The translations under genes and the position numbers were made by a program. Under the pieces are notes generated by a model that saw only the letters and a program-made list of their open reading frames with translations, did not search any database and had not been told where the DNA came from. Shown one piece after another: positions 3,832-43,084 of a stretch of DNA of 43,084 nt (the first letter of the stretch is position 1; every line of letters begins with the position of its first letter). The stretch comes from Cyanobacteria bacterium QS_4_48_99 (GTDB lineage: Bacteria > Cyanobacteriota > Cyanobacteriia > Cyanobacteriales > Rubidibacteraceae). The stretch spans positions 1-43,084 of the forward strand of contig PXPT01000115.1 of assembly GCA_003021505.1 (NCBI GenBank), read 5' to 3'.

Positions 3832-5055
3832 ATGAATAGAAATAAATTAGATGTACTGTTTCTAATTCCGCATCCCTTTTACCAGGATCGCGGTTCCCCA
3901 ATTGCGGATGAAATGGTTTTAAGAGTATTGTCTGAGCGAGGCAACGAAGTCGATGTGGTGACTTATTCAGAAGGTAAAGACATCCGTTATGACAATATCA
4001 CTTTATATCGAACAATTAATTTGCCGTGGGTTAACAATGTTAGTCCCGGATTCTCTTGGAAAAAAATTATATACGATTTTTTGATGTTAATCGAAGCGAT
4101 TCGCCTCGCTTCTAAAAAGAAGTATAATTTAGTTCATGCCGTAGAAGAATCAGTTTTCATGGCGCTCCTGCTAAAACTCCTGTTTCAGATTCCTTACTTA
4201 TATGACATGGATTCCTCTTTGGCTCAACAAATGGTGGAAAAATATCCTTTTCTATCCAGATTTAAAATTGTACTAAATTACCTGGAAAAGCTTGCTGTTA
4301 AAAATGCAAAAGCAGTAATCCCCGTTTGTAAAACACTGGCTGATGATATAGCAGTTTACCGACCTAAGAAGGTTGCGGTTTTACCGGATGTTTCCCTTTT
4401 AAATAGCGAAAAATATAAACATCAAGAAAATTTAAAATCAAATTTAAATATTAGCAACTTGATGCTGATGTATGTAGGCAATCTGGAAAGCTATCAAGGA
4501 ATTGATTTACTCCTAGAAAGTTTTTATTTCGCACTCCAGGAAACCGAACAACTCGATCTAGTAATTGTGGGAGGCAAATCTTCGGATATCAAAAAAAATC
4601 AAGAAAAAGCCAATCAGCTCAACATAGGCAAGAGGGTACATTTTTTAGGAACAAAACCCGTCAAGAGTTTAAAATCATACCTCTCGCAAGCTGATATCTT
4701 GCTTTCTCCCCGAACCACAGGTAAGAATACGCCCATGAAAATCTATTCCTATCTCGATAGTGGCCAACCTGTACTGGCAACGGATATTCCTAGCCACAAC
4801 CAGGTACTTGATCGCAAAGTTGCTATGCTTTGCCAGCCCACGCCAGAAGAGTTTTCTAAAGGGATAAACTCTCTAGTAAGAGATAAAGATTTGAGGTTAA
4901 AACTAGGCACGGAAGGAAGAAAATTAGTTCAGGAAAACCATAGCTATAGTGCTTTTCGCAAACAGTTAAATAGTCTTTATGACTGGGTGAGCAGTGAAAC
5001 TTTTCCACCTTCTGATGTGGTTATCGGTAAATCAAATTACAAATCAATGCCATAA
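3832..5055 (+). CDS. glycosyltransferase family 4
   Basis: A 407-residue GT-B fold glycosyltransferase of the GT4 type, which transfers a sugar from a nucleotide donor. The N-terminal acceptor half opens with LDVLFLIPHPFYQDRGSP, and the C-terminal donor half holds MYVGNLESYQGIDLL, the VIVGG strand and the donor-site region MKIYSYLDSGQPVLAT near residues 306-321. I start at the ATG at 3832; a TTG seven codons upstream is in frame but less likely. Base composition is clearly AT-richer than the housekeeping genes in this window, suggesting acquisition. It is followed by a GlpD remnant, an intact GlpD-like gene and two methyltransferases. Sugar and acceptor are unknown. Confidence 0.88.
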   Translation: MNRNKLDVLFLIPHPFYQDRGSPIADEMVLRVLSERGNEVDVVTYSEGKDIRYDNITLYRTINLPWVNNVSPGFSWKKIIYDFLMLIEAIRLASKKKYNLVHAVEESVFMALLLKLLFQIPYLYDMDSSLAQQMVEKYPFLSRFKIVLNYLEKLAVKNAKAVIPVCKTLADDIAVYRPKKVAVLPDVSLLNSEKYKHQENLKSNLNISNLMLMYVGNLESYQGIDLLLESFYFALQETEQLDLVIVGGKSSDIKKNQEKANQLNIGKRVHFLGTKPVKSLKSYLSQADILLSPRTTGKNTPMKIYSYLDSGQPVLATDIPSHNQVLDRKVAMLCQPTPEEFSKGINSLVRDKDLRLKLGTEGRKLVQENHSYSAFRKQLNSLYDWVSSETFPPSDVVIGKSNYKSMP

Positions 5056-28256: not shown

Positions 28257-29220
28257 TCAACTCTCGAAGCCAATATTTCCAATTCCTCTCCTTTCTCGCC
28301 GCAATAACCCTAATAAAAGAACGCCGCTCATCAGCATAGCTAACGCGAGTACGAAAATCTGAGACTGGGTTAGGGCATGATCAATGGAACCGCCCCGATA
28401 AGCTATGTCAGCGAAAGCCACAAACATCACATCGAAGCTATTGCCACCGAGAATTCCTCCCACAGCCAGGGTGAGCGCTCCCTGTTGCACTGCTGCCACT
28501 GAGGTAACAAGTTCCGGTAGTGACGTTGACACAGCGGTAAATAGACCTCCTACCACCGATTCCGAAAGCCCAGTTTGCTCTGATATGGATACCCCCGATT
28601 CTGCTACTACATAACCTGCCACTCCAGTAATCACTGCCAAGAGAAAGAAACGTAACCACAAACCTGTCAAGCTAGAACCACCGGAAGTGTCTTCTTCCAC
28701 TTCGTCGATGCGCGTGCTAGTAGTGCGTCGTGGGTTCCACATGGGGTGTTCCCGAGCAGCAGAAAGCACTCGAAGTCCAAATATATAGGAACTAAAATGA
28801 CCGCAGAAGCTGGATAAATAGCACAAACACTCACCTGAGGACCTGCCATTGCCAATAGTGAAATTGTCAGGAGGGTAAGTAATAGTGTTCCCTGCGTCAG
28901 ATTGGCAGGTGAAGCCGCCGCGTGTTCTAAGTTAGCTTTGCGGTACACAATGTCGGCCACCGACAGAAATGCAGTTTGGGCAGCTATTCCTCCCAAAGCA
29001 TTGCTAATCGCTAGTTCGGCATAACCACCAGCCGCCGCAGTTACGGAGGTGACAATCCCAGATAAGGAGGTACTGCCTCCCAAAAATAGGGCACCAACTA
29101 CTGCTTCACCGAGACCGGTTTTATCAGCCAGGCGGTCAGTTACCTTTGTCATCCTGGTGCCGATGATCGCAATGACAAAAGCCGCGATTAAAAATATACC
29201 GATATTAATTGCTAAAGAGT
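28257..29220 (-). pseudogene. cation/calcium exchanger, frameshifted
   Basis: Two overlapping minus-strand frames together make one sodium/calcium-exchanger-family membrane protein with two homologous halves. The first half contains ADKTGLGEAVVGALFLGGST and SLSGIVTS; the second contains SESVVGGLFTAVSTSLPELV and ALTLAVGGILGGNSFD. The frame changes at 28781-28787, where the coding strand has a TATATAT run between the codons for VP and FGLRVL; loss of one TA unit or gain of two would rejoin them. No start codon is found in the frame upstream of an ATG at 29152, although the first helix (AINIGIFLIAAFVIAIIG) is encoded before it, so the 5' end also seems damaged. A sequencing slip cannot be excluded. 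Confidence 0.75.
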
Positions 29221-33138: not shown

Positions 33139-33228
33139 CTTGTGTCCTGCCTCAGCAGTTTGCCTGCGGAAAGCCATGCCGGAATAAAAATTTAAAGGCG
33201 TTTACAGCCAGCAAAGAGGTCAGTGACA

Positions 33229-34609
33229 ATGACTGATGTATTAATCATTGGCGGAAGCGATGCAGGCATTAGTGCTGCCTTACGGGCAAAAGAGTTAGAG
33301 CCTACAGTCAATGTAACTGTCGTTGTGGCTGACAGCTTTCCCAACTACAGCATCTGTGGTCTACAGTTCTATCTCAGTGGGGAAGTGTCCGATTGGCATT
33401 ACCAGGCTCATCGAACGGTGGAGGAGATTACACACGAAGGCATTCATTGCTTGCTCGACCATACGGCTCAGACCATCAATCCAGCCCAAAAAAGCGTGAG
33501 TGTGGTGAATCGAGAAGGGCAGTTGAAACGCTTGACCTAGGAACGGCTCATCGTGGCTACGGGTGCTGCTCCAACTCAACCTCGTATCACAGGGCTAAAT
33601 CTCGGTGGGGTTTATCCGCTACATTCAATGGCGGACAGCTTTGCTGTTTATCAGCACCTAACGACTCGTAATCCCCAATCAGCCGTCATTATCGGCGGCG
33701 GATACATTGGATTGGATATGCCTGATGCTTTGACTTACCGAAATATCGCCGTCACAGTGGTCGAACATTCAGCATCCGTCCTGAAAACGGTCGATTCGAG
33801 TCTCGGTGAAATTGTTCGCAGGGAACTAGAAAATCATGGCATCCAGGTTGTCAACGGTGTTGCTGTTGAGGCGATCGCACAGCAAGGGACGCAGTTGCTT
33901 CTTACAGGTTCTCAAGGATTTCAGATAGCTACTGACCTAGTGTTAGTCGCGGTTGGCGTTCAGCCTTCAACAGAGCTGGCACAGTCGGCTGGCTTGGCAA
34001 TAGGAGTGCGGGGTGCAATTCGACTGAACCGGGCAATGGCAACCAATGTTCCTGATATTTATGCAGCAGGGGAATGTGTGGGAACCTGGCATCGCCTCCT
34101 CAACCAGCCCACCTATCTTCCTTTGGGAACGACCGCTCATAAGCAAGGTCGGATTGCTGGTGAAAGTGGCTGTGGGCGGGAATCGAGAATTTGCTGGGTT
34201 CCTAGGAACTCAGGTAGTGAAAGTCTTTGATTTGGCGATCGCGCGGACTGGCTTGCGCGAGAAGGAAGCAGAGCAGGCGGAATTCGACGCTCTCACCGTT
34301 GAGATAGATGCCTGGGACCACAAAGCTTATCACCTAGGGGCTCAGAATTTGCGAATTCGTATCACTGGAAAACGTCAGAGCGATCGCCTATTGGGAGCGC
34401 AAATGGTCGGTCTACTATCGCTCAGAGGTCGCCAAACGCATTGATATCTTTGCCACTGCCCTCTTTCATGGCATGAAGGTTGAAGAGTTAAATGACCTTG
34501 ATCCCAGCTACACCCACCTTTTAGTAGTCCCTGGGATCCTGTCCAGATGAGCGCACAAGCCTGGTCAAGGCAAAGTCACAGCATCCTTACCTATCTACGG
34601 TCTAGTTAA
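33229..34609 (+). pseudogene. FAD-dependent pyridine nucleotide-disulphide oxidoreductase of the ars island, multiply broken
   Basis: The fragments together form a CoA-disulphide-reductase/NADH-oxidase-like flavoprotein: VLIIGGSDAGISAALRAKEL (FAD site), NYSICGLQFYLSGE (redox Cys), ERLIVATGAAP, VIIGGGYIGLDM (NAD site), ATNVPDIYAAGE, AVGGNREFAGFLGTQVV, and IDIFATALFHGM. A TAG at 33538-33540 sits where this family has Tyr in YERLIVATGA. The frame then shifts near 34163, again near 34405, and again near 34520, after which the natural end SPWDPVQMSAQAW is readable up to a TAA at 34607. It lies between the arsN2 and arsH remnants. Such genes are often found in cyanobacterial ars clusters. Confidence 0.85.
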
Positions 34610-34624
34610 CACCAGCTAATATCT

Positions 34625-35384
34625 ATGACAACTTTCAATCATCCACCCAGAATTTTGTTTTTATATGGCTCTTTACGAGAGCGCTCCTACAGCCGCTTGT
34701 TAGCTGAAGAAGCCGCTCGCATCATAGAAGGATTTGGGGCAGAGACTCGCTTTTTTGACCCCCGTGAGTTGCCGATCAAAGGTAGTGTTGAAGAGACACC
34801 CCCCAAGGTACAGGAGTTGCGAGAGTTAAGCCTTTGGTCTGAAGGTCAGGTGTGGTCAACTCCTGAGATGCACGGCAACATTACGGGCATTAGCTGTAAT
34901 GCAAGTCAGTGGCGGTTCGCAGTCTTTCAACGCTGTGAATACGCTGCGGCTTCTGGGACGCTGGATGCGAATGTTTACTATTCCTAACCAGTCTTCTGTT
35001 GCCAAAGCCTACAACGAGTTTAACGAAGACGGCACGATGAAAGATTCACGCTACCGTGATCGCGTGGTTGATGTTATAGAAGAATTGCATAAATTTCCCC
35101 TGCTGTTGCGAGACAAAGCTGATTATTACTTTTAAACCAAAGAAGATCACAACAAGCAGCGACGGCCCACTGGTAGATTGCTTGCTGGGTTCGGGGCTAT
35201 GGGGTTCTGGCGTCTGCCCACTCCATGCTTGCTCGCTGCCCAAGTCTCCTTACTATTGTGATCTATATTACTTTAAGAGTAATACCTCACAGATCGTTAT
35301 AGCGAACGCAAGGAAAAGGCTGCCCAGCAAACCCTTCAAGTTGCAAAAAGTGCTACTGAAGTCAACTCTGGCAAAAATAGCTAG
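34625..35384 (+). pseudogene. arsH: arsH, with internal deletion and MITE insertion
   Basis: ArsH is an NADPH-dependent FMN reductase that oxidises trivalent organoarsenicals. The 5' part is excellent Ars[21 protein letters not shown], then [10 protein letters not shown] and [11 protein letters not shown]. After HGNITGI about 25-28 codons and the frame are lost (near 34895), and the protein resumes as [38 protein letters not shown] and [15 protein letters not shown] 159-bp insertion then interrupts the codon for Tyr in ADY at 35126. The C-terminus resumes at 35286 as LTDRYSERKEKAAQQTLQ and ends at a TAG at 35382. The gene cannot make a normal product. Confidence 0.9.
35126..35284. mobile_element. 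159-bp MITE with TA target duplication inside arsH
   Basis: The left end 35124-35152 and the reverse complement of the right end 35256-35284 match at 23 of 29 positions, sharing TATTACT, TTAAA and AGATCACAA. The element is flanked by TA on each side (35124-35125 and 35283-35284). Taking out 35126-35284 leaves GAT TAC CTC ACA GAT CGT, which restores D-Y-L-T-D-R, the expected ArsH sequence. It has no coding capacity; its inside is GC-richer than its ends. TA duplication and short inverted ends suggest mobilisation by an IS630/Tc1-mariner transposase. Confidence 0.85.
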
Positions 35385-35445
35385 ATGCCGAGAAAATCCC
35401 ACAACGATTTACTATTAACGAGAAAGTAACCAAGGATAAATTATC

Positions 35446-35865
35446 ATGAAAGGAGTTATGTTTGCTTGTACGAAAAACTCCTGCCGTTCTCAAATGGCAG
35501 AAGGATTTGCCCGCCAACTGGGAGAAGGCAAAATTGATGTTACCAGTGCGGGATTAGAAGCCAGTCGGGTGCATCCCACAGCAATTAAAGTAATGTCGGA
35601 AATTGGTATTGATATTAGCGATCAAACTTCTAAACCATTGAGTAAGTTCGAGCCAGAAAACTATGATGCCGTGATTTCTCTATGTGGGTGTGGGGTAAAT
35701 TTACCAGAAGAATGGGTGGTTAGGGAAGTCTTTCAAGACTGGCAGCTTGATGATCCCGATGGACAATCGCTAGAAACCTTTCGCCGCGTGCGCGATGAAA
35801 TTAAGGAACGGGTGGAAGAGTTGGTGCGTACGCTTTCAACTAAAAGAGCAAATCTTACTGGTTGA
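35446..35865 (+). CDS. arsC: arsenate reductase, glutathione/glutaredoxin-dependent cyanobacterial type
   Basis: A 139-residue ArsC of the low-molecular-weight phosphatase fold, close to the Synechocystis enzyme. The P-loop is FACTKNSCRSQMAEG with Cys8 as the catalytic thiol, and the resolving pair Cys80 and Cys82 lies in SLCGCGVNLPEEW, the same positions known to be needed in Synechocystis ArsC. It reduces arsenate to arsenite with glutathione and glutaredoxin. Thr9 stands where Lys or Arg is more usual. It is the only intact gene of the ars island; no arsR and no arsenite exporter (arsB/acr3) are present. It converges on the pst operon, and Pst permeases are a route of arsenate entry. Confidence 0.94.
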   Translation: MKGVMFACTKNSCRSQMAEGFARQLGEGKIDVTSAGLEASRVHPTAIKVMSEIGIDISDQTSKPLSKFEPENYDAVISLCGCGVNLPEEWVVREVFQDWQLDDPDGQSLETFRRVRDEIKERVEELVRTLSTKRANLTG

Positions 35866-36242
35866 CTTCTCCTCGCTCCAAAGAAACGAGGATCCTAAGC
35901 TAACACTACGCAGCGGGCTAAAGCCCGTTGCGTCGCCTTTTCTTAGCTGACCAGAGTTTAATTCTCTGGGGACGAGTCAAAGCGCCCTTACACACTCCAC
36001 TAAGGTCTAGCTCTAATGTTGTGCTTACTTTACTGAAACATTTTCAATTTGGAAAGTTGTTTTAGCGGGAACTGAGTTGACAGAATTAGTAACCATAAGA
36101 CTTAGGTAGTTGTTTCAACAAAACATTAGTAATTATCTGGACTTTTGGGATTAACATATAGCGTCTTAGAAATAGAACTCGCTGGAAGTTTCTAAACAGT
36201 TGCCCAGGAGTTGGATCTATTGCAATGAACCCTAATGTCAAC
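35866..36242. other. 377-bp spacer between arsC and pstA; no pstB
   Basis: It holds the arsC hairpin and then AT-rich sequence. On the minus strand after the pstA stop, where pstB normally follows, there is no Walker A, no signature motif and no open frame longer than about 60 codons. No remnant of pstB could be recognised. Confidence 0.6.
35909..35932 (+). terminator. strong hairpin after arsC
   Basis: CGCAGCGGGCT / AGCCCGTTGCG forms an 11-bp stem with one G-T pair and a two-base AA loop, followed by TCGCCTTTTCTTAG. It lies 44 bp past the arsC stop. The core gcgggctaaagcccg is also a widespread cyanobacterial repeat, so it may be a mobile palindrome that serves as terminator. Confidence 0.6.
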
Positions 36243-41506: not shown

Positions 41507-41718
41507 CTTAGGAAGTTCCAGAAAGAAAAGATGTCAGGCTCAAACCTATTCCTAAGCTGGTTCGGTTTAATAAAGCAGGACAGCGATCACGCCACGATGA
41601 AAAGGCAGAGCCAGCCGATTTACGCTGGTCGCGGGTGGAGGAATTTTTGCGATCGCGCGAACTCTCAGCTAATCCCATTTTTCGCAAGCAGCGCACTAGG
41701 ATAGATGGGACGGGTTGA
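41507..41718 (+). other. open frame without start codon, unidentified remnant
   Basis: After a TAG the frame is open for about 70 codons to a TGA, reading EVPERKDVRLKPIPKLVRFN and, later, RWSRVEEFLRSRELSANPIF. The composition looks protein-like and basic, but there is no start codon and I do not recognise the family. It may be the 3' end of a gene cut by the adjacent transposon. Confidence 0.35.
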
Positions 41719-41732
41719 GGACCGCGGACGCC

Positions 41733-42648
41733 ATGACCACTGTCTTCAACCTCGAAATCTCAGAATCGCCTCAGCAACTACAGCGCTTGCTTTGCCAGCA
41801 CCAACACGCTCGGGACCGAGATCGCCTGCGTGCCCTGTACCTGCGAAAGACCGGTCAGGTGCGAAGCCGCCGGGAGCTAGCCCAGGGCTGCAACGACTCC
41901 ACCCTCTACCGCTGGTTCTGGCTCTACCAGCAGCAGGGATTGGAAGGACTGCTCGAGCATCGGTTGGGTGCGCTACAAGCTGGGAGCCAAGCTCAAGCGA
42001 GGGCGCAAGCGCTCTCACCAAGCCGACCTGCAGCAGCAGCGACAGTTCAAAAAAAACTCGGCGGCATCATCCCGGTCCTAGAGGGCCACTTCCGGGAGCA
42101 GCGCCCGCTGCGCTACTTCTGCCTGGATGAGTCCCGCTGGGGATTGCGCACTGAGCTGGGGCGGCGCATCACGCTGCCTGGGGTCAACCCCGTTGCTCCA
42201 GTCGTCCAGTGGCATCGCGCCCATTGCTGGCTCTAAGGGGCGGTTGAGGTTCCCACCGGCCAGTCACTGTTCCACGCCTTCTCCCATCTCGAGGCTGTGT
42301 GCTTTCAGTGCTTTTTGGACCGGTGGGCTAGCCACTTCCAAGACAGCTTCAACTTGCTGCAGTTGGACCAGGCGGGGGCTCACATCCCTACCCAGTTGCA
42401 GTGGCCATCAACCTCGTGCCTGTGTTTCAGCCGCCGGCTAGTCCCGAGCGGGGTCCCATCGAGCGTCTCTGGCAGAAGCTCAGGGACCGGTTCCGGGGAC
42501 GCAACTTCGCGACGCTGCAAGAGCTCTAGCAGTGGCTGTTCCATCAACTCCACCATCTTTCAGAACGGACCATCCGCTCGCTCACCAACTGGAAATTCAT
42601 CCGCCGAGCGGTCCGCTCCGCCAAAAAGTGCAATATTATCCGTAATTG
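41733..42648 (+). pseudogene. IS630-family transposase, multiply broken
   Basis: Fragments in several frames make one IS630 transposase: N-terminal helix-turn-helix (RSRRELAQGCNDSTLYRWFW, LYQQQGLEGLLEH), then WVRYKLGAKLKRGRKRSHQA and QQQRQFKKN in a second frame, then the catalytic Asp region RYFCLDESRWGLRTELGRRI, LLQLDQAGAH (second Asp), and, in a third frame, FQPPASPERGPIERLWQKL with the catalytic Glu. Stops occur at 42234-42236 and again after FATLQEL, and part of the DNA-binding domain is deleted. The DNA is markedly GC-richer than the surrounding chromosome. The right edge is near 42649 at a TA dinucleotide; the left inverted repeat is not recognisable. Confidence 0.82.
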
Positions 42649-42790: not shown

Positions 42791-43023
42791 TAAAGAGATA
42801 TAGCGGTTATTAGACTCATAAGGTACAAATTCAGAATGCGATCACTAGTCAGAGTAGACTTCAGGTATACTCCACTTAAGTGAGAACTGCTATACTAGAG
42901 AGCAAATTAACTGTTGTGGCATTCATCGCTATTTCTTTAGACTTTTCTACGCTAAGTATTACTCCAGAACCTAAATAGATTACAGTCAGATGCCTGATAC
43001 TTCACTGGGGATGGCCAAAAGCC

Positions 43024-43084
43024 ATGGCTGAGTTGCTCCGGCCATTGCTGGATTCGGTGCAGATAAGCTCATACCAGCTGCTTG
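43024..43084 (+). CDS. possible start of a gene running off the window
   Basis: An ATG at 43024 opens a frame to the last base, reading MAELLRPLLDSVQISSYQLL. The upstream ggggatgg is a weak ribosome-binding candidate. The stretch 42840-43023 before it holds no gene I can see. No family can be assigned from 20 residues. Confidence 0.25.
   Translation, partial: MAELLRPLLDSVQISSYQLL

Follow-up and report, generated by a model that had tools for sequence, protein, structure and literature searches.

The window, by which we mean the whole stretch of 43,084 nucleotides analysed here, contains a disrupted arsH gene followed by arsC. The downstream arsC is intact, scoring 234 bits against TIGR02689 (cut-off 157.6). 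The arsH gene lies on the plus strand in three parts. Its N-terminal part (34625-34889) precedes an out-of-frame deletion of 68 bp and matches positions 12-112 of TIGR02690 at 34601-34903. The central to C-terminal part (34890-35125) is supported by the alignment and by model positions 128-210 at 34881-35129. The C-terminal tail runs from 35285 to the stop codon at 35384, as delimited by the alignment and by reading across the joined flanks, with its end position counted on the sequence. Between the last two parts sits a 161-bp MITE, which confirms what had been observed from the sequence alone.

The MITE occupies 35124-35284, with no strand assigned to it as a whole; it measures 161 bp with both copies of a TA dinucleotide, 159 bp as a net insertion and 157 bp without either TA. 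The left terminal inverted repeat (TIR; 35124-35152, plus strand) includes the left TA at 35124-35125, and the right one (35256-35284, minus strand) includes the right TA at 35283-35284. These 29-nt arms match at 23 of 29 positions. When the window was scanned for pairs of 29-nt arms that agreed at 23 or more positions and spanned 60-300 bp between their outer limits, this pair was the only one found. Dinucleotide shuffles produced such a pair in 3/200 cases, and in 0/200 did it have TA at each of its outer ends. Arm comparison, window scan and shuffles thus bear out the claim of the sequence-only reading that the ends are inverted repeats at 23/29 positions with TA on both sides. The element is short and TIR-bounded, and it carries no transposase gene beyond a start region.

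Aligning the locus to four intact arsH genes showed the insert as a clean gap at a tyrosine codon (four of the ten loci given were used; only one strand was read and the other six were dropped). TA is present at both ends of the insert, as against a single TA at the site in the four uninterrupted genes, as is the case for a duplicated target. The 159-bp insertion in arsH was therefore upheld. Furthermore, none of 30 arsH homologues scoring above the TIGR02690 cut-off in 60 genomes, the element's own genome included, carried the 159 bp. This count was computed from coordinates, every match spanning exactly three bases per model position; the site was read directly in 22 of the 30, and the other eight did not fit the motif used.

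Joining the flanks from 35125 to 35285 gives GAT TAC CTC ACA GAT CGT, which reads D-Y-L-T-D-R as in intact ArsH, within the protein ...RDKADYLTDRYSERKEKAAQQ.... With the insert present, 53 codons are added to arsH, and the interrupted frame reaches a stop at 35133-35135, inside the MITE and three codons on. The statement that removal of the insert restores the ArsH frame exactly holds locally, for the downstream side, but not upstream, where the gene is 68 bp shorter than its intact counterparts at about 34890, a length not divisible by three. Different frames are used by the N-terminal stretch (34625-34987) and the C-terminal one (34899 onward). Because these 68 bp are also missing, out of frame, removing the insert would not give a working arsH. 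As far as its sequence tells, arsH is a dead gene that was broken twice, the 68-bp deletion being independent of the insert. No ArsH scored above the TIGR02690 cut-off of 292 bits in this genome, where a third match, on contig C32, reached 76.5 bits. The locus is also an example of arsenic locus decay. In another member of the same family (G004), arsH matches only as two fragments (C1:3706303-3706690).

Other genes in the window are also split. Beside arsH, a pyridine nucleotide oxidoreductase gene at 33223-34230 is divided over two frames, and its first part is CoA-disulfide reductase-like at 48.5 bits, far below the cut-off. A sodium/calcium exchanger (PF01699) at 28257-29152 is divided over two overlapping frames, so that arsH is not the only gene touched by breakage or sequence error.

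Sequences related to the MITE were sought in its own genome, which comprises 3.62 Mb in 196 contigs. The right-hand part of the MITE (35156-35284, minus strand, antisense to arsH) corresponds to the 5' end of an IS630-family IS, covering the region upstream of the transposase gene and the start of that gene. It matches the IS on contig C99 (C99:72-199) at 84% over 130 bp, and further IS 5' ends on C15, C106, C78 and C133 at 76-78% over about 100 bp. A search for the end pattern with up to three mismatches returned 10 places in the genome, two of which were the MITE's own ends; the reversed control returned none. Of the other eight, seven are no more than 500 bases from the end of a contig, which would be expected of an assembly that breaks in repeats, and the exception is on C51. 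That contig holds an IS 3' end (L019:62-354) and a 26-bp IS 5' end (3890-3915) with about 3.5 kb between them; the two may belong to a single IS interrupted by other DNA. At all eight IS ends looked at, TA precedes a differing flank.

The presumed parental IS is a composite of two contigs, C99 and C91, which share an exact overlap of 99 bp; it was not seen on a single contig. The joined IS runs over 1,120 bp from TA to TA; its arms match at 23/29 positions and its reading frame is itself broken. The right arm of the MITE matches the 5' end of the composite at 27/29 positions and the left arm its 3' end at 24/29. Over the six best-scoring splits, the MITE corresponds to the first 124-133 bp and the last 28-35 bp of the composite, with 959-962 bp missing between them. 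A plain internal deletion would be the simplest reading of this anatomy, yet the left arm agrees equally well with the 3' end of the IS and with its inverted 5' end, at 24/29 each, so that another kind of rearrangement is possible. A related IS on C28 has both ends on one contig, with arms at 21/28 in a search that demanded TA. As to the full-length IS630 element sharing the 29-bp ends that the sequence-only reading suggested looking for, IS630-family ISs with matching, TA-flanked ends occur in the same genome, and the probable parent was seen as two overlapping contigs.

The transposase pieces were assigned by family models. The N-terminal piece of C99/C91, a fragment, scored 82.6 bits against NF033545 (IS630 family transposase), below the cut-off of 100, and the DDE piece of the related copy on C28 scored 120 bits, above it. 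In Pfam, HTH_33 (PF13592) and other helix-turn-helix models matched the C99/C91 N-terminal piece and DDE_3 (PF13358) matched the C28 piece; C91 carries a DDE_3 match as well. DDE_3 matches in the genome numbered 40, many of them partial or with stops. A transposase search of the genome_contigs collection gave six relatives at 51-56% identity, four of them titled cyanobacteria. IS ends were looked for around five of the six, with TA demanded at both ends, so that TA at these loci is not independent evidence. The arms matched at 21, 19 and 25 of 28 positions at L084, L085 and L087, respectively; L086 had no arms, as the locus ends too soon, and L088 had nothing above 12/28. The window also holds 31 sites of GCGATCGC, a motif that we take to mark cyanobacteria, and these sites together with the titles of the transposase relatives make it likely that the host is a cyanobacterium.

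We consider it about 90% probable that the element is a non-autonomous MITE of the IS630 family (Tc1/mariner superfamily), formed by internal deletion from an IS of the C99/C91 type. The interpretation as an IS630/Tc1-mariner MITE, first proposed from the letters alone, is supported, and its affiliation is borne out by the TA borders, the IS630-family transposase pieces and the matching IS ends in the same genome. In the proposed course of events, about 960 bp would have been lost from the middle of an IS of some 1,120 bp (TA to TA), so that about 128 bp remained at the 5' end and about 32 bp at the opposite one. We infer that the short form then moved: the transposase of a related IS in the same cell would have recognised both ends and excised the element, which would have inserted at the TA of the arsH tyrosine codon with duplication of that TA. 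From then on the ArsH frame would have stopped three codons on, within the element.

Alternatively, a full-length IS630 element may have inserted into arsH and lost its middle in place, the short form never having moved. The anatomy at a single site would be the same in that case, and only one complete copy of the MITE was found in its own genome, few for a MITE, although the assembly is split into 196 contigs. A second copy was found by BLAST in G003, a genome of another genus in the same family (C69:11872-12023, 84% over 152 bp). It has the same junction, and its left arm is identical to that of the window copy at 29/29 positions; its outermost right end is missing, so that TA on both sides is seen for one MITE copy only. 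The look for further copies, which the sequence-only reading had suggested, yielded this one, without its right tip, so that two copies in two genera were observed. Under in-place loss the G003 copy would have to be an independent deletion, against which stand the shared junction, the identical left arm and six columns (of 122) that both MITEs have in common and that are absent from all six IS 5' ends, two of the six columns lying at or past the junction. In addition, a tree of about 130 columns grouped the two MITEs together (support 0.92) beside the C99 IS (0.68). In its 5' part the window MITE shares a little more identity with the C99 IS (83.7%) than with the G003 MITE (81.1%), which fits loss in place. 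On balance we regard loss in place as improbable.

We think it more likely that both MITEs go back to a single founder than that two deletions occurred independently at the same base. Given the identities of the 5' part and the positions of the shared columns, the main support for this common origin comes from the junction, the identical left arm and the tree of about 130 columns; the pairwise identities partly speak against it and lower our confidence. The copy in G003 does not lie in arsH: the sole TIGR02690 match of that genome is on another contig, at 20.6 bits, and around the copy there are two short pieces without a Pfam match. The end pattern occurs at one place only in G003, which also has a diverged IS 5' end of this group on its contig C23. 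It is possible, though the odds are against it, that a MITE lineage confined to a single, probably cyanobacterial, family had one origin in a C99-type IS630 element and then either moved between genera or persisted in both. The two MITEs differ from each other (81% over 122 columns) more than the IS copies on C15, C106, C78 and C133 do among themselves (96-98%); on this reading, sibling ISs may have kept the lineage mobile when its own parent had decayed.

Beyond these two genomes the element was rare. Matches at E <= 0.001 were obtained in 2/60 relatives, 2/388 genomes of the order and 1/388 genomes of the class. These draws overlap, the own genome being in each; the draw from the class lacked the G003 match, and up to two candidates per genome were scored in the draws from order and class. 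Exact matches to the end pattern numbered 0 in genome_contigs and 0 in viral_contigs, and plasmids gave no match to the element; the own genome or very near ones are possibly absent from these collections.

It is very improbable that the insert was kept to serve the ars genes, for instance as a hairpin shaping the arsH-arsC transcript. The RNA fold of the insert is strong (-55.6 kcal/mol, z -3.63, with 0/200 shuffles as good) and arsC downstream is intact, but a hairpin follows from the inverted ends, and arsH is dead through a second lesion too. Between 34900 and 35500 there are four terminator-like sites against 0.5 expected, two of them within the element, but all four are on the minus strand, opposite to arsH and arsC. 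The single promoter-like site lies outside the element, with 0.8 expected, and Rfam had no match in 34500-36000. The regulatory role was rejected, as the promoter and terminator scan, the RNA fold and Rfam gave nothing beyond what inverted ends would; no function of the MITE for the host is indicated. Least probable of all, to the point of being negligible, is a chance repeat or an insert unrelated to transposable elements, since the imperfect arms, though equalled in a few shuffles, were never equalled there together with TA on both sides, the homology of one side to IS ends extends over 130 bp, and arsH is uninterrupted at the site in relatives.

Elements of similar make-up have been described in cyanobacteria. 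ISY100 of Synechocystis, a member of the IS630 family, is reported to insert in vitro almost only into TA, with duplication of it (PMC2170065). The MITE resembles ISY100 in its duplicated TA target and its inverted ends, and its parent in the helix-turn-helix and DDE regions of the transposase; unlike ISY100, the MITE has a length of 161 bp and no transposase gene. Its ends read TATTACT...GATCACAA. Nezha is a small, non-autonomous cyanobacterial element with inverted ends, and the arsH MITE resembles it in these general features. It is a named cyanobacterial MITE (Zhou et al. 2008, as given in an entry in PMC10969869). For Anabaena sp. 90, 147 MITEs are reported, of which 15 lie within disrupted genes; they are described as type II, showing no clear resemblance to the inverted repeats of the genome's ISs (PMC3542288). 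Both kinds are short and cyanobacterial, but the arsH MITE matches ISs of its own genome and belongs with the IS-derived (type I) MITEs of the IS630/Tc1-mariner superfamily. A literature search, which left subscription journals mostly aside, returned no IS630 MITE in a cyanobacterial arsH and no name for the element, in line with the sequence-only reading, which knew of none.

The arsH locus clearly illustrates how a MITE arises when an IS630 element loses its middle, with the probable founder IS, its derivative and the unoccupied site all visible. It adds one MITE family to those known; an event of this kind is well understood, and knowledge of MITEs is otherwise unchanged. At the end of the window, the 3' end of another IS of the MITE's parental group lies on the minus strand at 42957-43084, where it is cut off by the end of the window and contig; it is 74% identical to the 3' end on C121 over 113 bp and 77% identical to the C91 IS over 117 bp. 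The remnant of a different IS630-like transposase was observed at 41715-42526, with two family matches of 32.8 and 23.5 bits, both below their cut-offs.
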